Assembly: GCF_019059575.1 (NCBI RefSeq)
Contig: NW_024881569.1
Coordinates: forward strand, 806,001 to 870,000
Source: Amphibalanus amphitrite
Lineage: Eukaryota > Arthropoda > Thecostraca > Balanomorpha > Balanidae
DNA: 64,000 bases
Direction: 5' to 3'
Part shown: piece after piece, positions 31,624 to 57,305 of the stretch
How the letters are laid out: each line of letters opens with the position of its first letter
How positions within the stretch are numbered: the stretch's first letter is position 1
The notes under the pieces: generated by a model
The model's input: the letters and a program-made list of their open reading frames with translations, nothing else
The model's database searches: none
What the model was told of the DNA's origin: nothing
Translations under genes and position numbers: made by a program

Positions 31624-31696
31624 CACTGAATGAGCACGTCATTCAGAACACTACGTGCCGGAACATCGACCGGCCATTCATGAGCTCTCAGTTACT

Positions 31697-34600
31697 TCAG
31701 TTGTCTAGCTCCAGTCGCACGATCTTGGTGACCGGTCGTTTGTACACACCCTTCCGCGTGTTCACCTCCACGACGCGGACGAGGCCGTCCTGACCGGGGA
31801 ACGTCCTGGCGACTCTGCCCAGGGGCCACGAGCCTCGAGGCACCGATGGGTCTGCGATCAGCACCATCTCTCCTTCACGCAGATTGCGTGACATCTCCGT
31901 CCACTTCTGTCTTGTCTGAAGACTTGTTAAGTATTCTCTGATCCAGCGCCGCCAGAACTCTGTGTTCAGCTGCTGGAGTCGACGCCACCTTTTTCTGGCG
32001 TTCTCGGGCGTGTCAGCGTCTTCAGAGCAGATATCCAGCTGGGTGTGACCGAGCAGGAACGCTGCCGGGGTGAGCGGTGGCGCATCAGACGGGTCAGATG
32101 AGACCGCGGTCAGTGGCCTGGTGTTCAGAAGCGCCTCCGCGCGGCAGAACGCGGTCATCAGTTCTTCATCTGTCAGGTGGGCGGCTTCTAAAGTTCTTCG
32201 TAGTGCCCGCTTCGCACTTTTTACCATCGCCTCGCAGCCACCATTGAAATGAGGCGCTCCCGGAGGAATGAACTTCCAGTCTATGTAGAAGTGAGCGGTT
32301 TGTCTCTTGATCACTTCTTGGTCCAGAGCTCCGACTAGCTTCCGTAGCTCGCGACTTGCTCCAACAAAATTCTTCCCGTTGTCGGAGATGATCTCAGACG
32401 GCCTCCCTCTTCGAGCGATGAATCTCAGGAATGCTCGCAGAAAACTGTCAGTGTCGAGTCCGCAGGCCATCTCCAGGTGCACCGCTCTACTCTGTAAGCA
32501 CAGGAAGACGCAGAGGTAGCGTTTCAGCCGAGTCTTCCCTCTTCCCTGTCTGGTCTCGAACGGTCCTGCGAAGTCCACCGCGCAGTGACTGAACGCGCGG
32601 CAGGAATACATCACTTCAGCTCCAGTCTTCGGCGCCATCATCTGCTTCTCTGGCTTCTTGGATCTCTTGATGCACTCTGTACAAGATCTGATGCATTTCT
32701 TGACTTCTTCTCTGGCACTTATCACCCAGAACCGCTGGCGGAGTTCCGATATGGTGTGCTCGACGCCGAGCTCGTGTTCACCCTGCTCATGCACATGACG
32801 TACCAGGAGACGGGTCACTTGATGGCCCTTTGGGAGAAGCACTGGGTGCTTCACATCAAATGGCAAGTCGCTTCTCTGGAGGCGTCCGCCGACTCGCAGT
32901 AGTCCATGGTCATCTACAATCGGACACAGTCTGCGGATGCTGCTGCTTTTGAAGACTTGACCCTGTTTGCTTTCACCGGACGGGACTGCGTCTTGTGCTT
33001 CCAGCTGTCTTCGCTCCTTGGCAAAACATTCCTGAGCTCGCAGGAGCCAGAATGTCTCTGCAGAAGACATCTCCCGCCTGTCCAGTGATGATGATGTGCC
33101 GTCGTTGTGTTCATCTGGGCGCTCTCCTCTTGTTAGTCTCTTCAGTTTCTCGATAAACCTTAGAACCCACGCCGTCACCCTGACCAGCCTCATCAAGCTT
33201 GAGAAGTGACTTGGGTGTAGCCGGAGGTCATCTTGAGTTTCTTTGGTCAGAGTGCTGTGTACTGTCTTCGTCTTCTTCATCTCGCTCCTGTCGAATGGCT
33301 CTGATTGTAGATCTCTTGGCATTGGCCAGTTTTCTCGCTCTTCCACAAGAAATTCAGGGCCCGACCACCACAGGTCACTGGACTTCAGAACTTCCAGTGT
33401 TACGCCTCTGCTGGGAAGATCTGCTGGGTTTTGATTTCCGGGAACATGCTGCCATTGCTCAGGATCCGTCACTTCCCGAATCTCTGATATCCGATGCGCC
33501 ACGAACGACTGGAACTGCTTGACTTCATTTCTGATCCAACAGAGCACGTTGATGGAGTCAGACCAGAACAGCACATCTGATATCTGGATCCTGAATGCTG
33601 CACAGGCCTTCTTCGCCAGTCGCAGACCCAGGAGGGCAGCCATCAGCTCAAGACGAGGGATGCTGACCTTTCTAGAGCGTGGGGTGACTCTGACTCTTGC
33701 TAGAGCCAGGCTTGCGGCAACGCCATCTTCACTTGTGGTCACGACGTAGACTGCGGCTGCATATGCCTGCTCAGAGGCATCTGAGAAGGCGTGTAGCTTC
33801 TGAGCTGTAGCCTTGGAGAAGGGGTGGATGCATCGGGGCACTAATAAAGAGCTCACGCGCTCCAGCTCCGTCACCCATTCCGCCCACTTGCGCTTCATAT
33901 CGGCGGGCAGCTCATCGTCCCATTGAAGACCTCGGGACCACGTTTCCTGGAATAGGATCTTGCTTCGGACGGTAAATGGACTCATCAAGCATAGAGGATC
34001 GAAGATGGCTGCGAGCGTCTTGAGGCAGATCCTCTTGGTAGGCTTTGGCGTCATGTTCTTCTGGATGGTAGCACTGCTGCTAATGCTCAGCTTGTCTTCA
34101 TCCGCATTCCAAACGACTCCAAGTGCATTGGCACGAGTTTGAGGGCCATCTTCGATAGTGAAACTTGACTCTTTGGCTCGCTCTTCTTCTGGTATGCTGT
34201 CCGTCACTGAGCTGCTACTGCTTCTCCATTTTCTTATCTTCATGCCGGCCAACTGCATCAGCTCTGTGAGTTGCTTTCTGGCTTCCTTCGCTTCATCTTC
34301 ACATTCGAATGAGACGAGGGCATCGTCCATGTAGAACGAGTCCTTGATCGTGTTGGAAGCGAGAGGATATCGTGAAGCGTGCTGCTTGGCATTCTCCTTC
34401 ATCGCGAACTGGGCTGCAAATGGTGCTGCAGCGTTTCCGAACAGCCACCTCTGTGCTTCATAGATATCTGGCTCTCTTCCAGCTTCGCAGTTGCGCCGGA
34501 GCACACGATGGAACTTCTGATCACCATCGGGTAGCTTCACCTGGAGAAACATCTCCGCGACGTCTCCAGTCAGAGCGATCGCATGACGGCGAAATCCCAG

Positions 34601-37255
34601 CAGGACTTCTATCAGGTCGTTACAGATGGATGGTCCAGGATAGAGTTCATCGTTCAGACTTCTCCCTTCAAATTTTGCAGCTGCATCGTACACTACCCGT
34701 ATCTTCGTCGTGGCGCGATCTTCCTTTACCACCGGGAAGTGGGGCAAGAACCAGCCGTCTGAGGATGCAGCCTCTCTATCTTCAGGTACGATCTTCTTAA
34801 GGTATCCTTTAGATACGTAATCTTCAAAATTCGCATTGTACTTTTCTAGAAGAGACCTGTCTTCATTCTTTATCAGGCTCTGCTCAGTTTTTCTTAATCG
34901 GCTCACAGCGTATCCGAAGTTTCCACTCAACTCGGGCTGATCACGACGCCAAGGTACTGCTACTTCATATCGCTCGCCGTCGTACTTGAGTGAGTCTTGT
35001 GCCTTCTTAAGTGCGGACTTTTCCTCATACGAGAGAATCTTCTCATTCTCGTTTCTCACTCCGAGTAGTTCCAAGTCGGTCATAGCATGGATGGCGTCTA
35101 TTTTATCCTGATTGTTCACTGATACGTGAGTCCGTAGCGTTTTGCTGAAGTTTTTCTTCTTCGCATCTTCCACAGGCCCGAAGGCTGTCCAGCCGAGCGG
35201 GGTTTTCACTCCCACAGGTTCATGTGCTTCGCCTTGTCTTGTCTCCAGAGAAAGGAACAGCGACGTCGTAGAAGCCGTCAGTCCGATCAGCATATCGATC
35301 CCCTGTCTTCGTGAAACGTTGGGGAAAGATATGTTCTTCAGATGGTTCCACTTGCTCTTCGTCATGTTCCAGTCAATCTTGGCTGAAGCGCTGGAGAGGT
35401 CATTAATGACGTACACGCCAATGCTGGTCTTGAACGGGCCGATTGTGGAACACATTTCCACCTCCGACCTCTTCATGTTCACTTGACTGCTGCCTTCCAC
35501 TGTTCCCAGCTCAAACTGCTCTGGAACACCCTGGAGACCCAGCTCCTTAGAAGCGGCGTCCGTCAAGAAACTGGCATCCGAGCATGAATCCAGCAGGGCG
35601 TTGACGATAAGAGATCGTCCATTCGCCTTCACCTTCACGGGAACTGTCTGAAAAACGACGCGGCCTGAGTTCTGAGTCGCTGAAGCAGCGGTCCGATGAG
35701 TTAGCTCCCCTTCATGCTGTTCCTGAACTGGCAGTCTGGCAGTAGTATGACTTTGTGTCATCGCAGGGGTAGAATCACCGCGAGTCGCGTGGAGAAGACT
35801 ATGATGGCTGCCACCGCATCCTGCCACTTGACATCCTGGGAACTTCCTGCAGCCTAATCCACGATGAGTGCCAGCCAGACAGCGAAAACATATTCGCTTC
35901 GTCTTGCAGTAGCTGTACCGGCTGCCGACTGTCCACTTCTGGAACAGTGGGCAATCTGGATGTTGGTGTTCTTTCTCGCAATAGAGACAGCTTGATGCCC
36001 CATGTTGGCTCTGTCTCTCTGTCTTGGTACTCCATGTCTTCTTCATTTTCCTGGGAGAGTTCGTCTCTTCCTTCTTCATTCGGGAGCTGCTTGACATTTC
36101 TAGAGCTTCTTGTTCGTATTGGGCTTCTTCTGTGAGCCAGGTGGCGAACATCTTCAGATTGTCCTTCTCTCTTTGTCCTTGGATCCATCTTCGGTAGTTC
36201 TTCAGAAATGTCACGTGTAGCTTTTCTTTGACGAGGATGTAGTAGGCGGACACGTCGGCCAAATCGCCTGCTGAGCCATGCTCTTCAAGATTTGTCACCA
36301 GGCTTTGAACCCGATCAGCGAGTTCCTCCAAATCTCTCGTAGCGCCCGGACGGACTGGCCTGATGCTCCGAATCTCCTCCAGCTGATGCCTGATCCGTCT
36401 GCTGACGCCGCCGTACTTGCGTTCCAGCTCTGCCATGGCCTTCGTGAACCCAATGTCTGACGGTCTGTACCTGTCTACTAGTTTCAGAGCGTCACCTGCG
36501 AGACAGTTCTTGAGTTGCATCATTTTAAATTTTCCAGGAACGTTTTCGATGGTTACAAAGGCGTCAAACGTAGCTCGCCAGTCCTCGTATCTGTTTGTCT
36601 CGCCTGTAAAGACTGGAAGCTGTGGTCTCTTCAGTCCGTAGTTCGCCCAGTCGACCTTCACTCTCTCGTTATCTCGTGGCGACCGAGTGCTGTGACGTCG
36701 ACCTTCGACTTCAGGTGAGGCTGCTTGCTCTTCTGGTTGCTGAAGCGCATCAGTTTCTTCAGTGACTGACTGATGCGACTCCGTTTCCTGCGTCAGGGCC
36801 TCCGTCTCGTTGCTACGCTTGTCTAGAGCTGCAGAAACTACAGTTCTCACTGATTTATTTGCCAGCCGCAGAGTCTTGGATATTTCTCGCTGAATATCGT
36901 CATATTCTTCCCACGGATCTTCATCCTCCTCTTGTCCACTAGACATCTTGTTGGCCATCTCTTCCACTATGTTCAACAACTCATCGCTTGCCTTGTCTAG
37001 CTCAGAACCTATCTGCGAGATCTGCGAGACAGTTAGCTCACTGGTTTCAATCAGTGAATGCAGTCTGTTCTGTCCATCGCGTAGATCCCGAAGTAGTCTC
37101 GACTTCTTTCTTCTTAAATTCACTTCAGTTGTCCTCACATGGCTTTCTGTAGAAGTGGTAGTTGACATTGTCCCTTCAGTTCCATCCGTTACTTCTTCTT
37201 GATTCTGACTGGTTTCAGCTTCACCTTGCTGCGTCTTCTTGCGCCTGTTACCCAT
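31697..37255 (-). CDS. BEL/Pao Gag-Pol polyprotein, intact (1852 aa)
   Basis: Domains in order: coiled, charged N terminus; DUF1759 Gag region near residues 200-330 (PVFTGETNRYEDWRATFDAF); zinc-knuckle Cys/His motifs about 420-475; DUF1758 aspartic protease near 556 (LLDSCSDASFL); reverse transcriptase with YMDD about 973; Pao RNase H about 1155 onward (HAFSDASEQAY); integrase zinc-binding HHCC about 1487-1530; integrase core with D in VDFAGPF (about 1562), D in SDNGKNF (about 1625) and E in GGCEAMVKSAKRAL (about 1670); and a DUF5641 C terminus (GRVARTFPGQDGLVRVVEV). The order PR-RT-RH-IN is that of BEL/Pao. The protease motif is DSC where DSG or DTG is usual. The product would reverse-transcribe and integrate the element's RNA. 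Confidence 0.95.
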   Translation of the reverse strand: MGNRRKKTQQGEAETSQNQEEVTDGTEGTMSTTTSTESHVRTTEVNLRRKKSRLLRDLRDGQNRLHSLIETSELTVSQISQIGSELDKASDELLNIVEEMANKMSSGQEEDEDPWEEYDDIQREISKTLRLANKSVRTVVSAALDKRSNETEALTQETESHQSVTEETDALQQPEEQAASPEVEGRRHSTRSPRDNERVKVDWANYGLKRPQLPVFTGETNRYEDWRATFDAFVTIENVPGKFKMMQLKNCLAGDALKLVDRYRPSDIGFTKAMAELERKYGGVSRRIRHQLEEIRSIRPVRPGATRDLEELADRVQSLVTNLEEHGSAGDLADVSAYYILVKEKLHVTFLKNYRRWIQGQREKDNLKMFATWLTEEAQYEQEALEMSSSSRMKKEETNSPRKMKKTWSTKTERQSQHGASSCLYCEKEHQHPDCPLFQKWTVGSRYSYCKTKRICFRCLAGTHRGLGCRKFPGCQVAGCGGSHHSLLHATRGDSTPAMTQSHTTARLPVQEQHEGELTHRTAASATQNSGRVVFQTVPVKVKANGRSLIVNALLDSCSDASFLTDAASKELGLQGVPEQFELGTVEGSSQVNMKRSEVEMCSTIGPFKTSIGVYVINDLSSASAKIDWNMTKSKWNHLKNISFPNVSRRQGIDMLIGLTASTTSLFLSLETRQGEAHEPVGVKTPLGWTAFGPVEDAKKKNFSKTLRTHVSVNNQDKIDAIHAMTDLELLGVRNENEKILSYEEKSALKKAQDSLKYDGERYEVAVPWRRDQPELSGNFGYAVSRLRKTEQSLIKNEDRSLLEKYNANFEDYVSKGYLKKIVPEDREAASSDGWFLPHFPVVKEDRATTKIRVVYDAAAKFEGRSLNDELYPGPSICNDLIEVLLGFRRHAIALTGDVAEMFLQVKLPDGDQKFHRVLRRNCEAGREPDIYEAQRWLFGNAAAPFAAQFAMKENAKQHASRYPLASNTIKDSFYMDDALVSFECEDEAKEARKQLTELMQLAGMKIRKWRSSSSSVTDSIPEEERAKESSFTIEDGPQTRANALGVVWNADEDKLSISSSATIQKNMTPKPTKRICLKTLAAIFDPLCLMSPFTVRSKILFQETWSRGLQWDDELPADMKRKWAEWVTELERVSSLLVPRCIHPFSKATAQKLHAFSDASEQAYAAAVYVVTTSEDGVAASLALARVRVTPRSRKVSIPRLELMAALLGLRLAKKACAAFRIQISDVLFWSDSINVLCWIRNEVKQFQSFVAHRISEIREVTDPEQWQHVPGNQNPADLPSRGVTLEVLKSSDLWWSGPEFLVEERENWPMPRDLQSEPFDRSEMKKTKTVHSTLTKETQDDLRLHPSHFSSLMRLVRVTAWVLRFIEKLKRLTRGERPDEHNDGTSSSLDRREMSSAETFWLLRAQECFAKERRQLEAQDAVPSGESKQGQVFKSSSIRRLCPIVDDHGLLRVGGRLQRSDLPFDVKHPVLLPKGHQVTRLLVRHVHEQGEHELGVEHTISELRQRFWVISAREEVKKCIRSCTECIKRSKKPEKQMMAPKTGAEVMYSCRAFSHCAVDFAGPFETRQGRGKTRLKRYLCVFLCLQSRAVHLEMACGLDTDSFLRAFLRFIARRGRPSEIISDNGKNFVGASRELRKLVGALDQEVIKRQTAHFYIDWKFIPPGAPHFNGGCEAMVKSAKRALRRTLEAAHLTDEELMTAFCRAEALLNTRPLTAVSSDPSDAPPLTPAAFLLGHTQLDICSEDADTPENARKRWRRLQQLNTEFWRRWIREYLTSLQTRQKWTEMSRNLREGEMVLIADPSVPRGSWPLGRVARTFPGQDGLVRVVEVNTRKGVYKRPVTKIVRLELDN

Positions 37256-37343
37256 ACTTAAATCTCGACTTAATATTACTTTAGAATTACATTACGTTAC
37301 CTAATATCGTAACTCCGAATATCTGGGTCACTTTGCACTAAAA

Positions 37344-37580
37344 TGTGGCTTGATAGTTTCCTCGCGTTGTGTCTTTTTCTTAATAAACTTAATGACTTAA
37401 ATGAGAAACAACTAAGAACTTCAAATTCTCTGTCATTTCTGTATTTTCTTAACATTTTCACTGATAAGCCATTTTTATGACTCACGCGTCCTCACTCTGG
37501 GGCACCTCTCAGCCACTCACATAAAATAAGTTCATTCACCCGCCACACTTTCAATAAAGACAGTTCTTTTCTCATCAACA
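37344..37580 (-). repeat. 5' LTR of retrotransposon A
   Basis: 237 bp; on the sense (minus) strand this is the upstream LTR and should carry the promoter. One difference from the 3' LTR. Confidence 0.95.
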
Positions 37581-40119: not shown

Positions 40120-40123
40120 TTAA

Positions 40124-42224
40124 CCCGGCAGTTGCTGGGGTATTTCGCCACCCACCGTTTGCTGGGGGGGGGGGGGGGGCGTTAAACGCCCCCAGCCGAT
40201 AACTCGAGAACCAATAGGCGCAGCGAAACGCACGAGGCGGCAAACGAAAGAACGCGACGAGACGCTTCAGATGAGTACTTTAAAGTTGAATTTTGAGGTC
40301 ACAGGTCGGTTCAAGGTCAGGTCAAACACCTGAAATCGGGCTTTCAGTAGCATGGACTTCAGGACTTCGCAATGGGCGCCTCTCGTCATAAACTCTACCA
40401 AAACGGTGCACAATCCATCATATAAGGCCTACAAGAGTGTCAGCTCCATGCAGGGGTCAGTCAAGCATAGGTCAGGGTCAAGGTCAGGTCAACCGGGCAG
40501 GCACATATCCCCGAAAATAAAAACTGATATTCGCAGCCTGTGACACATGTTTTATGGGTAATTTGGGGCGTAGAACACGATGGTGACATTCATTTTATCA
40601 TATGTGTACGTGTTTGGCTAAAGAAGTTCAATTTAAGAAATTCATGTATCATGGTCGTGAAGTAGTCACGAGAAATTGCCAAGATTCAGTTCAAGATTTT
40701 GGAAAATGCGGAACGATAATCAATAATCGAAGATAGCCATTTGATTCTTCATGGTATTGGCAGTCTAATGGCGTTTACGGCATGTCTATATGTCTATTCT
40801 GTGATTTTATATGATTTTTTGAACATATGCCGTTTTTGGTCGAAAACTCAGAAATCATGACGTCACTAAAAAGTCGATATCTCAAAAATTTTCCGACCGA
40901 TTTTTTTTAAACTTTAACCTTCGCCCCAGTGGGGGGGGGGCATATGTTACCACCCTGTCGCGTTTTTTGCGTGTGAATAAAAAACCGCGGCGCGTAGCGC
41001 CGCGCCGCTTGGGGTAGCTTTTGGTACATCAATTTTGGACAATGTGCGAAATTTTTGACCCCAGGTCATGTCAGGTCAGTTCACCAGGTCAAGTTAACTG
41101 ACCAAGCCTAGGAAAAAGTTTGCAATCATGTCCAGCCTGCAGTGTTTGTCAGAAAGGTTTGAAACTTGGTGGATTGCATGCTGTTATGGGCGCCTACAAT
41201 TTGTATATCTCGGATTTTTGATATCCGTGACCTAAGGTCAGGTCAGTGGCGTGACCTTTCCATTACAAGTCAATGGAGAAAAATGAAAATGCCTCTAGAT
41301 CCGTGTGTACGCATCGGAACAGTCCAAATATTTCAGAATCGCAGTGCTTTAGTCCACTCGTGATGACCAAGGTGTCATTTTTGCTGATAGCCTCTAGACA
41401 GGTCATCCGAGGTCACTTGAGGCTACAAACAGTTTTTTGCCAATAACTCGCGATTGGAAAGAGATAGAACGCTGGGGAGGGTCTCATTGTGTTTGTCTTG
41501 ATGAGACGCATCGACTGATATGCAACATGACCTTTTCCGGTCAGGTCATGACCTTGACCTGAGGTCAAATTTTCAAGTTGACCTTACAAGGTCAACTTAT
41601 AGTTCATTCGACGCGTCTTGGCGAGGGGAACACGATTCTGGCAATAGAAATGTCGTGGCTTTTTGTAGTCGAAAGTTATTGTCGAAAAACACTTTTCGTA
41701 AAAACAGCTATTTTTGGAGTTTTTGCCCTCTGGAGGCTAAACCGTTGACCTGAGGTCAATATTGATAGTGACCTTTTCAAAAGAAGAGTTCAAAAGCTAT
41801 CGTTTGCTCTTCCATGCGTTTTTCTAGCTACCATAGTTCCTGAGATAGCGGCATGTTTTCTGAAAAATATAATGACAATTGGCAAATTTTGACCTTTGAT
41901 GACCTCTGGTGACCTCAATATTGCTCTAAGGTGAAAATGACCGAAATACTTTCAAACGTTCGCATTGAGAGCTATCGACTGCTTTTTACCGCGTCTTTCT
42001 AGCCCTCTTAGTTTTTGAGTTAGAGGTGGGTGGTAACATATGCCCCCCCTCACTAGGGCGAAGTTGGCTGAGACCGCCACTGGGGCGCGGGTTAACACAA
42101 TAAACTTCAATCGATTCCCTACAGGTACCCAAAATTTGGCGCGCCTGCGGCGCGCCGTTTTTATGCTATGGCCCGGCGAAAAAAGTGGGGGCGTTTAACG
42201 CCCCCCCCCCCAGCAACTCGCGGG
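40124..42224. mobile_element. TTAA-flanked (piggyBac-like) non-autonomous element, outer
   Basis: TTAA (40120-40123) then CCCGGCAGTTGCTGGGG; the other end is CCCCAGCAACTCGCGGG then TTAA (42225-42228). Just inside each end lies a G tract with the self-complementary box GGGGGCGTTAAACGCCCCC or its near copy. The interior is rich in AGGTCA/TGACCT. A second TTAA element (40918-42091) is nested in it. No transposase frame seen. Confidence 0.78.
40918..42091. mobile_element. TTAA-flanked (piggyBac-like) non-autonomous element, inner
   Basis: TTAA (40914-40917) then CCTTCGCCCCAGTGG; the other end is CCACTGGGGCGCGGG then TTAA (42092-42095). Inside both ends sits the box GGGGGGCATATGTTACCACC. A GCGGCGCGTAGCGCCGC palindrome follows the left box. 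The interior contains many AGGTCA half-sites, including AGGTCATGACCT near 41545. It has relatives at 56755-57300 and 63050-63640. Confidence 0.78.
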
Positions 42225-42228
42225 TTAA

Positions 42229-42804
42229 TAAATTGTCCCTGGTTTTAATGATGTAACAGAATAGTCCCTGAAGACTAGTTAGAGATGTGGTTATTAAGAA
42301 CGGACATTAGCCTACACAGAAATGTGTAGGTATGTACAATTGTGCAATGTAAAATGTATGTATACTATACATACATTTTACATGTACATATATGTACATT
42401 ACATGTACATATATGTACAATTACATACCAATATGCTGGGATATAATAAAAATCACGCGAAATATAGCGAAGCTTGGTGCACCTGCAGGTAGGACTGTGC
42501 AGTGGGCCATCGCTGGGTCGTAAAAAAACACACGTAACCTCAGGCACGTATCCAGGATTTCGCTCAGGGGGGGGGGGGGGGCGACAGCCGAGAAGGGCCC
42601 GGAGGTCAGCCAAAAGGGGCCCCACAGCGACTGCCTATCCTGGCGTGTAAAAATTCGAGAATGTCGAAAAAAAACAGCAAATTTACGATAGAATTTGGCA
42701 TTGTAAATGAAAATACATTGTCTTGCGTTTCTCGACCTTGATAACATGTTTGCAGTTAGCTTCCGTTGAAGTTCGTTTTTGCAGTTCACTTCCGTTGAAG
42801 TTCG
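42229..42804. other. spacer with short palindromic AT-rich repeats and a G-tract element
   Basis: It includes an inverted repeat of GTAAAATGTATGTATA (about 42349-42381), ATGTACATATATGTACAT direct repeats, and a fragment near 42543-42640 starting CAGGCACGTATCCAGG followed by a long G tract. That fragment's end resembles the inverted end (CCTTGGATACGTCCCTG) at about 59155-59171. No gene. Confidence 0.5.
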
Positions 42805-42808
42805 TTAA

Positions 42809-43044
42809 CCCGCGCCCGGCCGGGGGGGGGGGCTGTTTGAACACCTCCTCCTTGCGGTTTTGCGTGGATATAAAAAAGAGGGATGAATCTTATCTACAGA
42901 TATGAAAATTTTACACCCAGGTCGCTCAAGGTCAGGTCACCAGACCACGTCAAGTGACCTCACCTCAGAAAAGGTTAGAATGCTCTCCATAGCAACACCG
43001 ACTGAACGATCGGCTTGAAACTTTTAGCGATTGATAAGAGTAAC
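42809..43044. mobile_element. left end of another TTAA-type element, interrupted by retrotransposon B
   Basis: TTAA (42805-42808) then CCCGCGCCCGGCCGGGGG and the box CTGTTTGAACACC. Its sequence continues at 49261 after the 6.2-kb retrotransposon. A close relative without the insertion starts at 62841 and crosses the same point near 63052. The right terminus was not identified. Confidence 0.65.
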
Positions 43045-43325
43045 TGTTAGGGAATACCGCCGGTCTACCGGGCAGGTGGCCCGAATGCCGGACGCTCGAG
43101 CGCCGGCTGGCGGGCGCGGCGGCTCGGTCGGTCGGTGCCGCGTGAGTTACGTGTGCGCTCGGCCTGCCCCCCGGCGGTGAGCGATCAGCTGACCGGGCCC
43201 GGGCGGCCGGTAGCGGGGGCTGTGGCGAGCATTATTGGCTGTTGGTCCGTGCTGGGACGAAGTTGTCGGTCTTGGATGTGTGAATTGTCACCGTTCGTGG
43301 CAAATACAAGACTGATTACTTTACA
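43045..43325 (+). repeat. 5' LTR of retrotransposon B
   Basis: 281 bp, GC-rich, TG...CA ends, no difference from 48975-49255 found by eye. It should carry the element's promoter. Confidence 0.95.
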
Positions 43326-43328
43326 ATT

Positions 43329-43346
43329 TGGTGCCGAAACCCGGGA
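43329..43346 (+). other. primer-binding site of retrotransposon B
   Basis: TGGTGCCGAAACCCGGGA begins 3 bp after the LTR. A TGG start complements the CCA 3' end of tRNAs. The tRNA identity was not determined. Confidence 0.75.
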
Positions 43347-43517
43347 CGTTGCTCGGGACAGTGCAAGTGAGCATTGTTGTGATGGGTTGATGCCCAAGTG
43401 CTATCGTCAGTGGGCGATTTGTCGACGATTGCGGTGGACTGTCGGCAGTCGTCGGCGGTGAATTTCCGTCGGCTGACGGCGGCTTCGTGAGCGTTCTGAG
43501 GCTGCTGTGCGAACGCT

Positions 43518-45449
43518 ATGGCGGAGCTGGAGCGCCTGCTGAGGCGGCGTGTGGCGGCGAAGGGCTGGGCCACGCGCTCGGCCAACGTCTTGGCTGATCT
43601 GCTGGAGCAGAAGATGGACGAGGAGGTGGCTGGTGTGAGCCCTCGGCTGCTGCTGCTTGATGCGAAAAGAGAGTGCGAGGCGCGTCTGGCCGCCTTGGAC
43701 GAAGTACAGGCCTCTGTCGAGTGTGAGCTGAATCCAGAGGTCCTGGAAGGTGATTTGGAAGCTGCCTGGTCGTTCCGAGAGGGGATAAAGCGCGTTCTTC
43801 TCCGTGCTGCAGAGGTGCAGCACTCGGCTGAAGCAGGTGAACAGGTGCCTCCTGCATCAGCTAGTGGTCGATTTGGAGGTGCACGTCTGCCCAAGCTGGA
43901 GCTCCCGAAGTTCGACGGTGATGTGATGAAGTGGGGAACCTTCTGGGAGTCGTTTGAATGTGCAGTGGACCAGGCGGATCTGTCTGAGGTCCACAAGCTG
44001 ACCTACCTGAGGTCTCTTCTCGTTGGAGAAGCAAAGCAGTGCGTGGAGGGCCTCCCCCTCAGGGCTCAACACTACGCTGCCGCCTGTGACCTGCTGAAGA
44101 GCCGGTTTGGTCGCCCAGAGCTCATCATCTTCGCTCACGTGCAGCAGCTGTTGAGCCTTGGCAGCTCAAGTGAAACCAAGCTGCAAGACCTGGTCGACCG
44201 GCTCCTGGTGCAGGTGCGGAGCCTGGCTGCGCTGGGCGTCACTGGTCAGCAATATGGAGTGATCCTGACGCCTCTCATCCTGTCGCGCCTGCCCTCTGAG
44301 GTGCGCTTGGAGTGGGCCAGGAGCAGTGTTGGAAGAGAGGGTGACCTGGACAATCTCATCAGCTTCCTGCAACAAGAGATCTCCAGGCTGGAAAGGTCAG
44401 GCGTGTATGAGGGTCTGACGTCAACGAGGACGACTACCTCTCCAGGCCAGGCAGCTGCTGCTGCCACTGGACGCCGACCTGCCTTCTCTGGTGGGCGCCA
44501 GGGACCGGCGGCTGGCCTCCTGGGCCAGCGTGGGGCTCGTTCAGCCTCCCGCCCTTCTACTGCTGCTCTACAGTCTGCCGCTGCTGTGCGGTGTGGCTTC
44601 TGCGGACAGCAGCATCAGACAGCTAAGTGCTTGGGGTGGCAAAGACTGAGTGTAGATGACCGGTTCAGCTGTGTAAGGGAGAAACGCTTGTGTTTTTGCT
44701 GTTTGGAGACTGGGCACATGGCTAGACGCTGTGCTGCCAGATGTGGGAAGTGTGGTGGGCGTCACCATGTGACCCTGTGTGCTACTGAGGGTGATGAGGG
44801 TTCCCGGAGGGTGGATGCTGGGGTTGGAGCCAGGGAGGGGGCCCCCACCCAGGGTGTAGCCATGGGGGGAGGGGGACAGGGTGAGAGTGTTTCACTTTCA
44901 TGCACAACCAATGGAACTGTCACATTGCTGCCTGTCGCCACAGTATTGGTCCCTTCCGTGGATGGTAACAGTGTTGTCAAAGGTACTCTGATCTTTGATG
45001 GAGGTGCAGACCGCTCATTTGTGACAAAGTCGTTCATGAGGAAGGTCAAAGGAGAGCTTGAGGGCTCTGTCGAGATGAGCTGTGCCTCCTTTGGTGGCTC
45101 AAAAATGACTGATGTGTGTGATGTGTATGAAATCAGTGTGACTGGCCTGAATGTCTCTGTGCCCACAGCTGAAAAACTGCGAGTAGTGGAGGTGGAGCAA
45201 ATATCGGCGCCCCTGCGGAGACCACCTGTGTCCTCGAACCTGCTGCAGCCCTTCAACCACCTCCAGCTGGCCGCTGACTGCCCCTCGTCTGAGTCCACGC
45301 TGCACATAGACCTGGTGATCGGGCAGGACCAGTACTGGGCCCTTGTTAAGGCGGGGCTGGTGAGGGATGGTGGGCTAGTGGCTATGGAGACAGCCTTTGG
45401 CTGGGTTCTCTCTGGTGCCGTGGATGGACGGTCGAAAGTAGAGGGCTGA
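43518..45449 (+). CDS. BEL/Pao Gag-protease part (643 aa), ends at an in-frame TGA
   Basis: From ATG 43518. An N-terminal helical segment is followed by a DUF1759 Gag region about residues 125-300 (LPKLELPKFDGDVMKWGTFW), three Cys/His zinc-knuckle motifs (about 359-371 CGFCGQQHQTAKC, 393-406 CFCCLETGHMARRC, 411-423 CGKCGGRHHVTLC) and a DUF1758-type protease near 491-502 (LIFDGGADRSFV). The frame runs past FGWVLSGA, normally mid-polyprotein in BEL/Pao, and stops at TGA 45447-45449. The same frame stays open immediately after. The stop is followed by CAGTTA, matching the CARYYA readthrough context. The protease motif DGG departs from the usual DSG/DTG. Confidence 0.93.
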   Translation: MAELERLLRRRVAAKGWATRSANVLADLLEQKMDEEVAGVSPRLLLLDAKRECEARLAALDEVQASVECELNPEVLEGDLEAAWSFREGIKRVLLRAAEVQHSAEAGEQVPPASASGRFGGARLPKLELPKFDGDVMKWGTFWESFECAVDQADLSEVHKLTYLRSLLVGEAKQCVEGLPLRAQHYAAACDLLKSRFGRPELIIFAHVQQLLSLGSSSETKLQDLVDRLLVQVRSLAALGVTGQQYGVILTPLILSRLPSEVRLEWARSSVGREGDLDNLISFLQQEISRLERSGVYEGLTSTRTTTSPGQAAAAATGRRPAFSGGRQGPAAGLLGQRGARSASRPSTAALQSAAAVRCGFCGQQHQTAKCLGWQRLSVDDRFSCVREKRLCFCCLETGHMARRCAARCGKCGGRHHVTLCATEGDEGSRRVDAGVGAREGAPTQGVAMGGGGQGESVSLSCTTNGTVTLLPVATVLVPSVDGNSVVKGTLIFDGGADRSFVTKSFMRKVKGELEGSVEMSCASFGGSKMTDVCDVYEISVTGLNVSVPTAEKLRVVEVEQISAPLRRPPVSSNLLQPFNHLQLAADCPSSESTLHIDLVIGQDQYWALVKAGLVRDGGLVAMETAFGWVLSGAVDGRSKVEG

Positions 45450-45461
45450 CAGTTACTGACC

Positions 45462-48400
45462 TTGGTAGTGCCGCACACCTGTGGCTGTGATGTGTGGGCT
45501 CAGGGTCCCTGTGATGTGGAGAATAGCGATGAGAGTGAGGATTCATTGCTAAGGAGGTTCAATGAGACGATAGAGTTTGAGGACGGGAGGTACATAGTAC
45601 AGATTCCTTGGACAGATTCTAGGGATCAGTTACAGGATAACAGAAGGGAAGCAGAGAGGAGACTGATAAGTTTGGAGAGGCGGCTTCAGCGGAATCCCCC
45701 TCTCCAGGCTGCCTATGGTGCTGCTCTTCAACAGATGGAGGATGATGGCTTCATCAGTGAGGTGCCTCCTGATGAGCTCGTGACCGAGAACGTGACGTTT
45801 TACCTACCTCACAGACCAGTTGTGAAACTGAGCAGCAGCACTACCAAGGTGCGACCCGTCTTCGATGCCAGTTCGAGAGGGTCTAACGGACTGTCCTTGA
45901 ATGATGTTGTGCACACTGGCCCCTCTCTGATGCCCAGCGTGCAGGATGTGTTGCTGCGTTTCAGGCGTTGGAGATATGGCGTCAGTGCTGATGTGAAGCG
46001 TGCCTTTCATCAGATCTGTTTACAGGATGAGGACAGAGATGCACACCGGTTCCTGTGGCGCCAAGATGGACGCCTCCGTGTGATGCGCTTCAAGCGTGTG
46101 GTGATGGGTGTGGCGTGCAGCCCCTTCTTGCTCAATGCGACCATCAAATACCATCTCTCACAGAGCCCTGACAGCAAGGTGAAGACGGAGCTGTTGGACT
46201 GCCTCTATGCGGACGACTGGCTGTCCGGGGCCGACAGCGAGGAGGAGGCGGCGGCTCTGCTGCAGGATGCCTGCACCGTGATGGCTGCTGCAGGCATGGA
46301 GCTGACTAAGTGCTCCAGCAACTCGCCGCTCCTGTTGGACGCGGTGAGACAGGGGGCCGCCTGTTCAGAGAATGAAAGTGTGAAGGTGCTCGGCGTCACC
46401 TGGTGTCAGGATGATGACACACTCTGTTTCACAGGTGACCACCTGCCTGTTGGGATTGTGCCGACAAAGCGTGTGGTGCTGTGTATGATGGCCCGCGTGT
46501 ATGACCCGCTTGGCTTACTCAGTCCCTTCACAGTGCTGGCCAAGATTTTATTCCAAGAGCTATGGGAGCTCAAGGTGGACTGGGACGAGGAGCTTCCGGA
46601 GGAGAAGGCAGAGCTGTTCTGCCGCTGGCTGGACGGCTGCCGGCGACTGCGGGACGTGAGGGTGTCCCGCTGCTTCACTGCGATGTCCGCCGGTGACTGG
46701 TCGTCACTCACAGGTGATGTGGAGCTGCACGTATTTGCGGACGCTTCTCTGAAGGCGTATGGTAGCTGTGTCTATCTCAGGTTCGTGCAGCCTGACGGTT
46801 CATACCGCGTGTCTTTCGTCATGTCCAAGGGACGCGTGGCGCCGCTGAGGCAGCGGCTGACTCTCCCCAGACTGGAGCTGCTGGCGTGTCTGACGGCAGC
46901 AGAGCTGGTGAGACTAGTTATCGAGGCTCTGCGCCTACCGGAGGAGACCCCCTATGTGTGCTGGAGCGATTCTATGGTCGCTCTCGGATGGCTCAGGGGG
47001 CGACCTGAGCGATGGGATGTGTTTGTACGTAACCGTGTTTCTCGCATACAGGAGCTGACCTGCTCAGAGAACTGGCGCCACTGCCGGTCTGAGGATAACC
47101 CTGCTGACCTCATGACTCGGGGCGTGTTGGCAGAACAGCTTGTGACGTCACCGCTGTGGTTCAGCGGACCGGAATGGCTGTCACGGGCGGAGACGGCGCC
47201 CGTGTCTGCTGACGTCACACCACCTGCTCCTCAGCTGCCTGAGGAGGTGGATGCTGTGGCCGGTGCAACTCTGACGGCGGTGAGAGTGGACGAGTCTGAG
47301 CGCGGCCTGTTTCAGGTGACGAGATACGGGACGCTGGCGAAAGCCACGCGTGTCGTGGGGTGGACGCTGCGGTTTGTCTATAACTGCAGGCACCGCTCAG
47401 AGCGCCGAGCTGGTGAGCTCACAACTGAGGAGCTGGCGGCTGCCTGTGACCATTTGTATCGTGCCGCACAGGTAGACAGCTACTCTGCCGAGATTGACCT
47501 GCTGCGGCAGGGCAAGCCAGTGCCCGCCAGCTCGCCACTCCTCAGATTGACGCCCTTTCTCGCTGATGACGGTCTTCTGCGCGTGCGCGGGCGGCTGCAA
47601 ATGTCTGACTTGTCGTATGAGGAAAAGCATCCGATAATTATTCCCAAAGGCTACCTGGCAGAGCTGCTGGTGCGTGAGCGGCACAGGGTGATGAAGCACT
47701 GCGGTGTTTCGACCTTGATGACCGCCCTGAGGTCCAGCCTTTGGATCGTCGGTTTGCGCTCGATCGCGCGGCGCGTCGTGAGGAGCTGCGTGTCCTGTCG
47801 GAGGCACGACTCTCGAGCCTGCTGCGAGCCGGCGCCACCCCTGCCTCGTGACAGGGTGACCGAGGCGAAAGTTTTCGAAGTTTGTGCACTTGATTTTGCA
47901 GGTCCTCTGTTCTCTGCCGATTGTCCGAAGCAGAAATTGTATATCTGTTTGTTTACGTGCTCTGTGGTGAGGGCCGTGCACCTCGAGTTGACGGAGTCGA
48001 TGGGAGTTGACGATTTTTTGTTAGCCTTTCAGAGGTTTGCAGCGCGGCGCGGTGTTCCGTCGACTGTTTATTGTGACAATTTCAGGACTTTCAAGTGCGC
48101 CGAGCGTCTGTTACAGGGGCAGTACGGCCGACTCGCGCCGAGATTCAAATACTCGGCGCCACTGGCTCCCTGGTGGGGAGGCCAGTTTGAGCGCATGGTG
48201 CGCAGCGTTAAGGCGGCGCTGAAAAAATCCCTCGGTCAGAGACATCTGACAAAAACTGAACTGCAGACTGTGCTGACAGAAATCGAGGCTTGTGTGAATT
48301 CCAGGCCGCTGACCTTTGTTGGTGATGCACCTGATGACCCTGTGCCACTGACCCCTGCGCACTTTCTGACTGGGCACAGTGTGGGCTTCCAAGTGCGGTC

Positions 48401-48740
48401 GGCTCAGGAGCCCTCCGCTCAGACAGCAGATACACTCAGATCGCGCGCGAAGGCTAGAGCGAGGCGTCTGAACAAGTTCTGGACGGTTTGGAGTCGTGAT
48501 TATCTCAGGAGCCTCCCTCTAGCGGTGAGGCGCTTCAGATCCCAAGGTGGGCTGGTGGAGGGTTCAGTTGTCCTCCTTCAGGACGAGAATCAGCCCCGAT
48601 TTAAGTGGGAGATGGGAGTGGTGACCAGGTTGTTCCCTGGGAGGGATGGTGTGCCCAGATCTGCCGAGGTACGAACGTGCCGTGGACGGAAGACGAGGGC
48701 AGTGCAGCGTCTGCACGACCTCGAGATCCTGAGTCCGTGA
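45462..48740 (+). CDS. BEL/Pao Pol part: RT, RNase H, integrase (about 1092 aa), same frame as Gag
   Basis: This frame is in phase with the Gag-protease frame and has no ATG of its own at the beginning; it opens right after the TGA, so expression probably needs readthrough or is lost. Reverse transcriptase carries YADD at about residues 249-252; Pao-type RNase H about 422 onward (LHVFADASLKAYGSCVY); integrase zinc-binding motif about 740-782; integrase core with D in ALDFAGPL (about 810), D in VYCDNFRTF (about 872) and E in GGQFERMVRSVKAALKK (about 905); DUF5641-type C terminus (VVTRLFPGRDGVPRSAEV). CDNF replaces the usual SDNG near the second catalytic Asp, but the Asp is kept. Confidence 0.93.
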   Translation: MVVPHTCGCDVWAQGPCDVENSDESEDSLLRRFNETIEFEDGRYIVQIPWTDSRDQLQDNRREAERRLISLERRLQRNPPLQAAYGAALQQMEDDGFISEVPPDELVTENVTFYLPHRPVVKLSSSTTKVRPVFDASSRGSNGLSLNDVVHTGPSLMPSVQDVLLRFRRWRYGVSADVKRAFHQICLQDEDRDAHRFLWRQDGRLRVMRFKRVVMGVACSPFLLNATIKYHLSQSPDSKVKTELLDCLYADDWLSGADSEEEAAALLQDACTVMAAAGMELTKCSSNSPLLLDAVRQGAACSENESVKVLGVTWCQDDDTLCFTGDHLPVGIVPTKRVVLCMMARVYDPLGLLSPFTVLAKILFQELWELKVDWDEELPEEKAELFCRWLDGCRRLRDVRVSRCFTAMSAGDWSSLTGDVELHVFADASLKAYGSCVYLRFVQPDGSYRVSFVMSKGRVAPLRQRLTLPRLELLACLTAAELVRLVIEALRLPEETPYVCWSDSMVALGWLRGRPERWDVFVRNRVSRIQELTCSENWRHCRSEDNPADLMTRGVLAEQLVTSPLWFSGPEWLSRAETAPVSADVTPPAPQLPEEVDAVAGATLTAVRVDESERGLFQVTRYGTLAKATRVVGWTLRFVYNCRHRSERRAGELTTEELAAACDHLYRAAQVDSYSAEIDLLRQGKPVPASSPLLRLTPFLADDGLLRVRGRLQMSDLSYEEKHPIIIPKGYLAELLVRERHRVMKHCGVSTLMTALRSSLWIVGLRSIARRVVRSCVSCRRHDSRACCEPAPPLPRDRVTEAKVFEVCALDFAGPLFSADCPKQKLYICLFTCSVVRAVHLELTESMGVDDFLLAFQRFAARRGVPSTVYCDNFRTFKCAERLLQGQYGRLAPRFKYSAPLAPWWGGQFERMVRSVKAALKKSLGQRHLTKTELQTVLTEIEACVNSRPLTFVGDAPDDPVPLTPAHFLTGHSVGFQVRSAQEPSAQTADTLRSRAKARARRLNKFWTVWSRDYLRSLPLAVRRFRSQGGLVEGSVVLLQDENQPRFKWEMGVVTRLFPGRDGVPRSAEVRTCRGRKTRAVQRLHDLEILSP

Positions 48741-48963
48741 GTCCGACCATCACACCGTGAGTCCGTGAGTCCTCTTCTCACCCTGACCTCGGCTGCCCAG
48801 TGCCCGTCTCCGCATTGGTGTGATATTTGTCGTGGTTTAGTTTTGCGCCGATGTGTTTGTTCAGTTTCTCGTCGATTTTTATAATGCGCCGATTTGATTT
48901 ATCGTATGCTAAGCCGGTGGTATGTGATGTGTTGTGAACTTGCGAAACGTCTGTCCCGTTTCA

Positions 48964-48974
48964 CGGGGGGAGGA
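48964..48974 (+). other. polypurine tract of retrotransposon B
   Basis: A CGGGGGGAGGA run sits directly before the TG of the 3' LTR, the normal plus-strand priming position. Confidence 0.7.
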
Positions 48975-49255
48975 TGTTAGGGAATACCGCCGGTCTACCG
49001 GGCAGGTGGCCCGAATGCCGGACGCTCGAGCGCCGGCTGGCGGGCGCGGCGGCTCGGTCGGTCGGTGCCGCGTGAGTTACGTGTGCGCTCGGCCTGCCCC
49101 CCGGCGGTGAGCGATCAGCTGACCGGGCCCGGGCGGCCGGTAGCGGGGGCTGTGGCGAGCATTATTGGCTGTTGGTCCGTGCTGGGACGAAGTTGTCGGT
49201 CTTGGATGTGTGAATTGTCACCGTTCGTGGCAAATACAAGACTGATTACTTTACA
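48975..49255 (+). repeat. 3' LTR of retrotransposon B
   Basis: 281 bp, identical by eye to the 5' LTR; followed by the target duplication GTAAC. Confidence 0.95.
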
Positions 49256-49272
49256 GTAACAGTATGTATGTC

Positions 49273-49495
49273 GTAGGCATCGGGTGAAATCCGGCATTTC
49301 ATGAAATGTCTAGGCATTACATGGAATGCCGGCAAAAACTGAAATCTTCGTAGAAATACGGGCGTTACAGCGAATGCCTGAAAATTTTAGGCTTTTCATG
49401 AAGTGCCAGGCGGAGGCCAGGCACTCCCTGAAATGTGGTCAAAACCAATTGAGTACATTTGTTGCCTAGGCATTACATGAAATGCCCGACTGACG
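49273..49495. repeat. repeat built of self-complementary GCATTTCATGAAATGC-type boxes
   Basis: Several boxes such as GCATTTCATGAAATG, GGCATTACATGGAATGCC and CATTACATGAAATGCC occur within 220 bp. The whole segment recurs in inverted orientation at about 56520-56740 with good similarity, including the CAAAAACTGAAATCTTCGTA stretch. Confidence 0.75.
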
Positions 49496-49514
49496 GCCGG
49501 ACTTTTGACCTTTC

Positions 49515-49598
49515 GACCTCGAAAGGTCGAAAGGTCAAAAGTTGACCTTAGGTCACGTGACCTAAGGTCAACTTTTGACCTTTCGACCTTTCGAGGTC
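49515..49598. repeat. 84-bp perfect palindrome with central CACGTG
   Basis: 42-base arms meet at 49556/49557 with no spacer and no mismatch, centred on GGTCACGTGACC. Each arm carries AAGGTCA-type half-sites and the CGACCTTTCGAGGTC motif. Only one arm is present in the related copy at about 52520-52567. Confidence 0.95.
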
Positions 49599-49682: not shown

Positions 49683-52321
49683 AGCATATTTACGTCTGGA
49701 CAACGAGTTGCGGGGAAAAGTGCTGATTGTGTTGCAGTTTTAGGAGCCGGTGATTAGGCTGGATTTTTGGGTTACTTTTTCGTTCTGATTCATGTATTTC
49801 ATAGTGTTTGGCTTTTGAATATTTTAGTTCTTCCAGATAAATATTACTTGCCTTACAACTTTTGTAAAAACGTTTCATTTTTTTTTATAAGCCGACGTTC
49901 AGAGTCCTAAAAATACATCAGCACTACAATCATTGTAAACAAACAAATGGAGCACCACTTGGCTCTGTTCCAAGGCCATTTTTAGTTTATCTGGTGGTTT
50001 TCTTGCTCTTGTACGTCGTTTTGTTGGATGTTTTGAATCCCTTAAGATTGACTTATATCATATTTAAGAAGCATGTTGACTGAAAACAATCTGAAGTACC
50101 CAGGAGGCTGACAGAGGTCCTGACTACTGAGCAATATCAATATCAAGTTGAACAAGTTATTAAATTTTGGTTGATAAACGCAAGGTGATCGGGCTCATAT
50201 ATCAGCAAGAAAAAGTAAAATTAAAAGAGCTTATTGTCCAAAAACAAGCTACAATATTGCAGACCTTGGAGCAATACTGAAGAGCACGCTGAGCAGGATC
50301 ATGCCAGAAAATGTTGACTGATGAGCGCATATTGATGTATTGGTATGAATATTGAATGATAACTTACAACAGCAAGATAAATTAGTGCTAACTATCAAGT
50401 TAAAATCTAGAATGAATGGACTTGGGCAGTTTTACTATGCTTAGATGCTATGCAGATTGTAATGTGCATCAGGTACTCAGTGTCTGGCAAATGAAACATG
50501 CGATCATTCCGTTGCTACTGGAGTAGAAAGCTTGGATCACTAAATCCACTTTATGTTTATTTTGATTTTTGATGTTAATCATCATCACTGTATTTCTTGA
50601 AAAAAGGATTGTAGTAAAATTGTCAATGTGACAATCCATGCAACGATGTGATCATATTATGTGTTCATAGTCATTCGTGATAGTCATTATTGGTCCAATA
50701 TACAATGGCAAAGCTCTCAGTCTCAGCGTTTCTTCCTGTGGATGGTCGGCAGTGACTCAGAGCTTAGAAGCAGGTATTAGCTTTCTTCACAGGGCTGGGA
50801 TAAAAAGTACTGAGGGTCATCTTCCACCAAGGAACTCTACTTTGACATGGTATGAGATGTAGGCACAAGTAGGTAGGTGCTCAGTTCCTATAGTCAGTAG
50901 TGTATGTTTAGTCGGGTTAGCTTAGATTAGATTGTTAGTTTTTTAATTTGCCAAATGTCCATAAAAATGTGACCTGAGCAATGAGCATACCTGAACCTGA
51001 CTAACCTGACAGCTGACCTAACCTCAATCATCACACATATTTGCAGCCTACCCAAGACCTGCATGGCAGTAGCACCCAGTTATAGGTAGGTACTCGCCCT
51101 AACTCAATCTTACCTGCTAACCTTCAACTTGCCAAAAGTTAGCTCACATTGCCAAGCTGCGTCCAGGGAAACAGTCAACTGAGGAACTGGCTCATTGGGT
51201 GGCTGGTGTGAGTCTGTGCATTTAAAGTGTTTTTTTCTCTGAAGCTGCTCTGCACTGCTGTATGTCATGTTAGATGCTCAGAAAATGTGGGAAATGATTA
51301 CTAAGCTACTTTAATGCTTTGTTAATGCTCGAGACATGAACAAGTACAGATCCTGCAGGGTACAGCTATGAGTTAGGTGCTAGGTGAGTATGTTATGTGA
51401 ATGTGCTGTTCCCTGTTTGACTGTAAGTATAAAAACAAGCACAGAGTCACAGTTATATTTAATCTCCACATAAACATACAACAAAACCGGCCATATAGTC
51501 TAACTCCGAACACACCACAGATAACTTAAGCCTTTGTAGGCACAAAAATGTTTTGATTAACAGGACAGGTTTACAATATATCCTCTGTCCTTGGGGGATC
51601 TTGCTGCCAAGTTCAGGTATGAATTATGATGACTGAACTTCAGGATTGATCAACCTTTTCTTAGCCACTGCTTATATACGAGAAAGACCAAATGCTTGTT
51701 TGTTTTGATTTACAGGACATGTATACAATATATCCTCTGTCCTTGGGGGATCTTGCTGCCAAGTTGAGGTACGATGACTGAACTTCAGGATTGATCAACC
51801 TTTTCTTAGCCACTGCTTATAAACGAGAAAGACCAAATCAAAATGCTTGTTTGTAAACTGCGTTGAAAATTTAATGATCCACCTTCAATTCTGACATGAA
51901 GGCACAAATGAAATAGTTCCCTCTCCTTTTGGAATACACAAAGCAAAATAATTAATAAATTTTAGTGGATGGACAAGAGCAATTAGCATATCTTCCCCTC
52001 AAGTTAACTTCTGGCACTGTTGATGAATTATACTGACGCTTATTCGCTTCATATTTTGTAACAAACGCGCTAAAACTGCAATATAACAGCACTATATGCT
52101 TCTTGGCAAAATGCAATAGTATTAAAAATTTAGCCCTGATGGCATTCATTCTTGGTGGAAACGTAATCACAAAATATTTTGTAGTAACTATTAAATTCCG
52201 GCCGAAAACAGTGCACGGTTTAAAAAAGAATCACTCCAATGACGGTCCATTCTTGCGGTCCTGAAATCGCCACTATTTCCGGCCTCTCCAACGCAACTCG
52301 TTGTCCAGACGTAAATATGCT
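49683..52321. mobile_element. 2.6-kb non-autonomous DNA transposon with 30-bp terminal inverted repeats
   Basis: The ends AGCATATTTACGTCTGGACA + ACGAGTTGCG and their exact inverse are perfect over 30 bp. They are flanked by GAAAGTT (49676-49682 and 52322-52328); the duplication reads as 8 bp (TGAAAGTT) if the last T is shared. The interrupted host repeat continues across (compare 57585-57640). The interior is AT-rich with no transposase frame; it includes a local duplication at 51562-51858. Superfamily not assigned. Confidence 0.88.
51562..51858. repeat. tandem duplication of about 140-150 bp
   Basis: Segments starting near 51562 and 51714 share ACAATATATCCTCTGTCCTT, GGGGGATCTTGCTGCCAAGTT, GACTGAACTTCAGGATTGAT and ACGAGAAAGACCAAAT, with a few indels. 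Confidence 0.85.
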
Positions 52322-54837: not shown

Positions 54838-54839
<2 letters not shown>

Positions 54840-56740: not shown

Positions 56741-56754
56741 ATAAAATGATTATC

Positions 56755-57301: not shown

Positions 57302-57305
57302 TTAA

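Follow-up and report, generated by a model that had tools for sequence, protein, structure and literature searches.

In the piggyBac superfamily of DNA transposons, the inverted tips begin with CC after TTAA. The ends of piggyBac are asymmetric, and an internal palindromic repeat, the site of the cysteine-rich domain, lies at bp 17-33 of the left end (LE), as described in excerpts of PMC7351741 and PMC11707139. Excerpts of the latter also describe several subterminal end motifs in piggyBat of Myotis lucifugus, one of which restricts activity. Internal sequence likewise affects mobility in the rice miniature inverted-repeat transposable elements (MITEs) mPing/Pong; in the excerpted text of PMC9921582 its authors suggest a role for nucleosomes located close to the ends or in the stretch between them, and they cite piggyBac as requiring internal sequence for efficient transposition. 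Human Alu elements with a DR2 (direct repeat, DR) are, in the part of PMC1785376 drawn on here, a very abundant genome-wide repeat carrying receptor half-sites. Here we describe elements in a 64,000-nt stretch of the Amphibalanus amphitrite genome (G000:C72:806001-870000, forward strand; hereafter the window) that carry clusters of the nuclear-receptor half-site AGGTCA (TGACCT on the other strand). The clusters are spaced by about one nucleosome length and stand in register with the element tips. The genome scanned comprises 807.55 Mb in 2,644 contigs, and L-numbers denote stretches or loci taken from it.

The window segments are best described as TTAA-flanked DNA transposons of the piggyBac superfamily, nested and partly broken, of a T. 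ni piggyBac-like clade. With T. ni piggyBac (6x67/6x68; PMC7351741) the group shares the TTAA duplication, the CC.. tips, a PF13843 transposase and an aligned catalytic DDD, as well as, so far as the excerpts go, a palindromic internal repeat near the tips and asymmetric ends. It differs in that the palindromes are G/C-armed with family-specific cores, and in that a phased AGGTCA array extends several hundred bp inward; no phased array of this type is mentioned in the excerpts of PMC7351741. The arrays also differ from the piggyBat motifs, which in the excerpts of PMC11707139 are transposase sites within 153-bp left and 208-bp right ends, and from mPing/Pong, for which the excerpted PMC9921582 gives a base-composition effect and no specific shared internal motif. 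The Alu case concerns DR2 in a retroelement, and the excerpt of PMC1785376 includes neither phased clusters nor mobility. None of the matches listed from the open PubMed Central literature describes a phased AGGTCA array, whether in piggyBac or in any other transposon.

AGGTCA and TGACCT occur 159 times in the window, against means of 33 (maximum 51) and 43 (maximum 59) in 60 simulated sequences each of order 1 and order 2. Eight element segments totalling 7,856 bases hold 101 of them (12.9 per kb), compared with a mean of 3.6 and a maximum of 10 in 200 simulations, and AGGTCA is the most over-represented hexamer of the window elements (28.7-fold). The remaining 56 kb hold 58 (1.0 per kb; simulated mean 30.6, maximum 47), 11 of which lie in two minisatellites. 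The enrichment claimed in a preliminary description of this DNA holds against simulated sequence and is larger than first noted. Beyond the window, a genome sample of 20 stretches of 10 kb (200 kb) contains 407 AGGTCA, 4.5-fold above expectation, with 283 of these in 19 runs of at least five that cover 17.4 kb including flanks. Scaled to the genome, this gives about 1.6 million AGGTCA, roughly two thirds of them in runs of at least five.

The clusters recur at a nucleosome-length period. Pair distances of 596 AGGTCA sites peak near 160, 320, 470, 610, 750, 900 and 1050 bp, and distances of 60-100 bp are almost absent. These sites come from the sample, the window with its minisatellites masked, and L002 and L003, two loci chosen by a match to AGGTCATGACCT and excluded from the cluster-pair statistics and hexamer phase ranking that follow. 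Among neighbouring cluster pairs less than 1 kb apart in the sample and window, 57 of 69 fall at 100-240 bp (mean 163.5, standard deviation 16.8); when a tandem array in L011 is omitted, 44 of 58 fall at 130-200 bp and one at 130 bp or less. When 478 hexamers with at least 150 sites were ranked by phase ratio, AGGTCA came second (12.05; median 1.0), behind a hexamer that overlaps AAGGTCA. Genome-wide, AGGTCA pairs with a gap of 140-160 bp (146-166 bp apart) number 453,026 (227,643 + 225,383), against 5,166 (2,701 + 2,465) in the backward control. At a gap of 70-90 bp (76-96 bp apart) there are 45,655 (23,315 + 22,340), some visibly from dense arrays, against 6,936 (3,724 + 3,212). In phase and off phase alike, a pair inside a dense cluster contributes more than once to these figures.

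We also found this period to be tied to the tips. A tip-pair search of the sample, window and L002 gave 14 candidate elements with matched TTAACC tips (14 to 17 of 17 positions). Two were dropped from the table of ends, L015:2534-3422 (no AGGTCA, another tip type) and window positions 17091-18480 (right tip doubtful), and two coding elements, on contigs C33 and C44, were added, again giving 14. In 13 of these the distance from the tip to the start of a G-run is 17-18 bp at one end (LE) and 43-46 bp at the opposite one (the right end, RE). The run thus begins about 27 bp further in at RE, and in many families it forms a G/C-armed palindrome. Such palindromes occur within the first 80 bp of about 14 of 23 tips and have family-specific cores, e.g. 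CGTTAAACG, CAGATTCTG, TCGGATCCGA, TGTTTGAACA, CCATTTTGG and TTGTATCAA. The centre of the first AGGTCA cluster lies 167 ± 3 bp from the tip at LE (n=6) and 185 ± 10 bp at RE (n=13), L021b being excluded because its LE and RE could not be assigned. One period outward therefore falls at bp 4 (LE) or bp 22 (RE), on or beside the tip repeat. AGGTCA sites occupy the RE half in 13 of 13 elements and the LE half in six of 13. In the seven RE-only elements, which represent five families (W40120 with L013a is one, L004a with L006a another), 75 of 79 sites read AGGTCA inward. Families without detectable spacer similarity share both phase and tip register. The ~160-bp phasing, the orientation toward the ends and the transposase-coding partner are additions to the preliminary description.

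This partner emerged from a genome profile search with PF13843 (DDE_Tnp_1_7), which returned 116 scored matches of 232 candidates; twenty loci were inspected (L024-L043). The intact 645-aa open reading frame (ORF) of L043 (E 9.4e-60) belongs to the C33 element, whose ends match L005:385-1576. Its AGGTCA clusters lie 170-202, 334-373, 497-558 and 666-744 bp from one end and 158-176, 318-335, 480-501 and 648-661 bp from the other. The gene-less L005:385-1576 (1,192 bp) is an internal-deletion copy of this 4.7-kb coding element: it consists of the two C33 ends fused together, with 99.4% identity across 682 columns and 98.3% across 515. Another copy, on C431, has TTAA on both sides like that on C33, with different flanks, and a third is on C257, where part of the retrieved 5' stretch is unmatched; the three transposases are essentially identical (protein search, 73 matches). 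The closest solved structure to the 645-aa protein is T. ni piggyBac (E 1.2e-56). D295, D379 and D478 align with the catalytic D268, D346 and D447, and the cysteines, which may form a C-terminal cysteine-rich domain of the T. ni type, align to 6x67 up to residue 643; the AlphaFold model has a mean pLDDT (predicted local distance difference test) of 67.7.

A second coding family, on C44, carries 12 sites. Measured from one end they lie at 179, 201 and 567 bp, and measured from the other at 169, 352-357, 539-544 and 914-1103 bp; the copy seems to us to be frameshifted near its C-terminus. The C33 and C44 transposases form one clade (two of 14 rows in the tree, support 100/100). At the other twelve transposase loci, in five of which tips were located, we saw no array that forms part of the element itself; AGGTCA clusters near two of them (L025 and L035) match neighbouring elements or fall outside the tips found. 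AGGTCA arrays are lacking in five piggyBacs from other clades for which the two tips were located. We rejected piggyBacs with TTAACCCATTAG, TTAACCCTTTA or TTAACCCAGATC tips as mobilisers of the window elements, as their ends carry no AGGTCA array.

The half-sites are conserved above their surroundings. In an alignment of seven homologous copies, 56-83% alike, columns defined as half-sites in a third copy were 85.6% identical between two others (7,225/8,440), against 65.8% for other columns (51,121/77,708) and 65-73% when the half-site columns were slid by 12-60. The hexamer AGGTCA was unchanged in 408 of 608 comparisons, whereas the median for 188 other CpG-free hexamers was 26%. The size of this effect is approximate because the aligned copies are not independent by descent and words that recur may have been favoured in aligning them; its direction agrees with the earlier remark that half-sites are retained while their surroundings diverge. 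The commonest pair in the 200-kb sample is an overlapping direct repeat (DR-1), AGGTCAGGTCA, with 44 cases, followed by DR4 (25), DR9 (22), DR0 (19), DR5 (18), DR2 (14), the inverted repeat (IR) IR0 (11) and DR1 (9), and start-to-start steps of 5, 10, 15 and 20 are prominent. The EcR/USP-type IR1, AGGTCANTGACCT, is absent from adjacent pairs in the window elements and occurs twice in the 200 kb. Receptor spacings (DR4, DR0, DR5, DR2, IR0, DR1) do occur, so receptor dimers may still be involved, though the EcR/USP arrangement is not favoured. The TCAAGGTCA form, which we take to be the FTZ-F1/ERR-type monomer site, is the commonest 5' extension, yet it accounts for only 62 of 566 sites, 28 of which are explained by a preceding GGTCA. 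TCA is the top preceding triplet, 3.7-fold after removal of direct repeats, but it precedes 34 of 471 sites. Raised variants near the clusters are GGGTCA (7.0-fold), AGGTCT (5.8) and AGGTCG (5.4).

AGGTCA stays constant while tip motifs, palindromes and transposases differ between families, and transposase sites usually change together with their transposase. This favours a shared and, most simply, a host AGGTCA-binder, and we suggest that the clusters may well be bound by a host protein of nuclear-receptor-like specificity. Tentatively, we favour a layout in which this factor could well phase nucleosomes across the ends and keep the tips accessible. Clusters with bound protein would serve as linkers; nucleosomes (147 + ~16 bp) would then be phased across the ends and would hold these in a regular geometry. 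With one period beyond the first cluster reaching bp 4 or bp 22, the tip repeat would be left open to the transposase, for which tip repeat and palindrome are the putative sites. Considering that gene-less copies keep their arrays, a selected role in cis for mobilisation seems indicated rather than one in driving the transposase gene. The preliminary description had proposed, as one of two possibilities, that a receptor-like host factor might serve these elements in their own mobility or silencing. With AGGTCA constant across families and kept in gene-less copies, the mobility version is still the leading reading, without the EcR/USP arrangement.

Several results weigh against this phased layout. 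Compensating insertions or deletions between clusters showed no sign (67 intervals, ratio 1.15), so a spacing constraint within a family is not demonstrated. Some neighbouring spacers are duplicates (within elements, four of 52 spacer pairs exceed the 99% null of shuffles, two of them at one C33 end), so that tandem duplication has played a part. The most frequent pair, AGGTCAGGTCA, does not correspond to a classical receptor dimer site, and the C44 family has few sites with a wider spacing of ~185 bp. No transposase source was found for the window family itself, whose ends are only 72% similar to those of the coding element. At the remaining ~9 of 23 tips, including those of the inner window element (40914-42095), our script found no G/C-armed palindrome or another one. 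All 20 sampled stretches lie on long contigs, and within one genome, spacing through shared descent and spacing through selection are not fully separable.

The duplicated spacers bear on the idea that the array is a functionless relic, the ends having grown by tandem duplication of a ~165-bp satellite-like unit in which AGGTCA is the slowest-changing or most re-copied part. Adjacent spacers are homologous in the C33 left end, W40914 and L002a, a 12-cluster tandem array and dense AGGTCA arrays exist elsewhere (L011; C1:1237935-1238515), and compensating indels are lacking. We nevertheless consider a relic unlikely: 48 of the 52 spacer pairs do not exceed the 99% shuffle level, half-sites are conserved above their flanks, and phase and tip register are common to families that have no detectable spacer similarity. 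The same 48 pairs led us to reject satellite DNA with a single homologous ~165-bp monomer, the L011 array being the exception. This array (L011:7669-9384) has clusters 182, 147, 138, 165, 147, 140 ... bp apart and an apparent ~450-bp higher-order repeat, and looks like a satellite-like derivative of the phased array. Very dense AGGTCA matches in 5-20 bp steps occur at C1:1237935-1238515 and C1:2012254-2012734 (G000); judged from match positions alone, they are apparently long tandem arrays of GGTCA-type units.

The clusters might instead be subterminal sites of the element's own transposase, or of a second domain of it, that raise or limit synapsis, comparable to the internal repeats in piggyBac and to the additional sites at the left end of piggyBat; ~163 bp would then reflect a transposase-DNA or transposase-nucleosome assembly. 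Both array-carrying coding families fall in one transposase clade, the array sits at the ends, points inward and is retained in gene-less copies, and according to excerpts of PMC11707139, subterminal repeat arrays are presumed in many systems to be sites of the transposase. We still find this rather doubtful, since the expected transposase sites (tip repeats and palindromes) vary by family whereas AGGTCA is the same across transposases only 35-38% alike, and since the sites extend from the ends as far as 744 bp in C33 and ~1100 bp in C44, beyond the 153/208-bp ends that the excerpted text gives for piggyBat. Very unlikely, in our judgement, is that the arrays are hormone-responsive enhancers dispersed by the elements and kept for driving the transposase or host genes. 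AGGTCA is an established receptor half-site (for Alu, in the excerpt of PMC1785376), the half-sites are conserved, and DR4, DR5 and DR2 occur 25, 18 and 14 times in the 200 kb. However, gene-less copies retain the arrays, overlapping DR-1 is commonest and IR1 nearly absent, and enhancers need neither a strict ~160-bp spacing nor a tip register.

Within the window (Table 1), positions 40124-43044 are not a single element: they comprise an outer element, an inner one nested in it and the beginning of a third. The outer element has its RE-type (long) end on the left and its LE-type end on the right, with AGGTCA clusters confined to the RE half, and is 95.6% identical to an uninterrupted 932-bp copy (L013:4758-5689). 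TTAA insertion with duplication is seen at the inner element, whose empty site is visible in this uninterrupted relative in L013, and at the junction of 57302-57877. A genome search with the first 187 bp of the inner element gave 533 candidates; the 40 places scored, one of them the element itself, are 97-100% identical, which suggests that its family was recently active. In agreement with the preliminary description, which placed an IR0 near 41545, AGGTCATGACCT lies at 41543 and TGACCTTGACCTGAGGTCA at 41549. TTAA ends are not seen at every segment listed there: 52320-53120 and 54838-55600 lack them. The label non-autonomous fits the window members, all without a transposase gene, while the group includes a transposase-coding relative.

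Table 1. Coordinates of the elements and AGGTCA clusters described (TIR, terminal inverted repeat; signs after clusters give the half-site orientations).
Feature	Coordinates	Strand	Details
Outer TTAA element, non-autonomous	40120-42228	-	2109 bp with insert, about 930 without; TIR 15/17
Outer element, cluster 1 (+++)	40296-40324		centre 193 bp from RE tip
Outer element, cluster 2 (+++)	40469-40491		centre 362 bp from RE tip
Inner TTAA element, non-autonomous	40914-42095	+	1182 bp; LE left, RE right; six phased AGGTCA clusters; TIR 15/17
Inner element, cluster 1 (+++)	41063-41091
Inner element, cluster 2 (-++-)	41228-41257
Inner element, cluster 3 (++)	41400-41415
Inner element, cluster 4 (-+--+-+)	41528-41594		contains AGGTCATGACCT
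Inner element, cluster 5 (-+-)	41746-41774
Inner element, cluster 6 (---)	41890-41915
Third TTAA element, same group, left end	42805-43044	+	cluster 42929-42960
Perfect 84-nt palindrome of GGTC(A) units	49515-49598		within AGGTCA-rich segment 49500-49690, related to 52519-52650
AGGTCA-cluster segment, no visible TTAA ends	52320-53120		clusters 52406, 52543, 52731, 52873, 53002; contains 201-bp near-duplicate
Diverged member	17091-17965	+	left end TTAACCCTCGCCGGCCGG, right end doubtful; sites 17201, 17256, 17444, 17600, 17769, 17953; spacing 55, 188, 156, 169, 184
Relative of 17172-17953 (73%)	54838-55600		no matched TTAA ends
1.19-kb group member	56739-58195		left end lost; split by 57302-57877
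576-bp TTAA element inside 56739-58195	57302-57877	+	TIR 16/17; TTAA junction seen
Member continuing past window edge	62837-64000	+	left end at 62837; clusters 62954, 63099, 63258, 63420
Coding element	C33:447032-451754		4,723 bp; 645-aa transposase ORF; tips TTAACCCGCGCCCTGGTG and TTAACCTTCGCCCTGGTG
Second coding family	C44		3,975 bp; protein 35-38% alike to C33 transposase

The third TTAA element is split by a BEL/Pao long terminal repeat (LTR) element at 43045-49255, with a 5-bp duplication (GTAAC) and a short continuation from 49256. The BEL/Pao element has 281-bp LTRs that are 100% identical and Pao peptidase, reverse transcriptase (RT) and DUF1759 domains, and is a recent insertion. Another LTR element, at 31377-37580, has 237-bp direct repeats (99.6% identical) and a 1,864-aa minus-strand open frame that reads like a BEL polyprotein. 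A 233-bp repeat made of GGCATTNCATGNAATGCC-type palindromes is present in inverted copies (92%) at 49268-49500 and 56506-56738 and adjoins AGGTCA elements at both places, while an imperfect palindrome of TACATGTACATATATGTACA-type units lies between two TTAA elements at 42332-42399. The minisatellite that holds the 11 non-element AGGTCA occupies 8700-10250 and 16280-17090 in opposite orientations, with ~20-bp units (GGGCCCTCAGAGGCC) and a 194-bp higher order. The window also contains two tandem copies (91%) of a 145-bp unit at 51549-51838 and, on the minus strand at 27018-29552, an open frame of 844 aa with a high content of proline, serine and threonine, for which Pfam gave nothing at E 0.001. 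Scans of the window for Rfam families and tRNAs gave no match. A scan of a viral collection with the spacer word GACGAGAGGANCACGATG gave a single match, in a 7.9-kb viral contig unlike the window and sample, which we take as chance.

As far as we know, it is not settled how cut-and-paste transposons reach their own ends within chromatin. In this case a ruler of about one nucleosome length, anchored at the tips, can be read from the DNA of both coding and gene-less copies, which makes the idea of a chromatin layout directly testable by moving or mutating clusters. With some reserve, we put forward the possibility that this transposon clade encodes its own chromatin layout, with host-factor sites at one-nucleosome spacing from the tips as a platform for synapsis and access, and that, by multiplying to large numbers, it may have distributed receptor-type half-sites across an animal genome at intervals of one nucleosome. 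Regular arrays of such half-sites, put in place by one transposon group, cover several per cent of the genome and provide abundant potential regulatory DNA whose built-in pattern is unusual.

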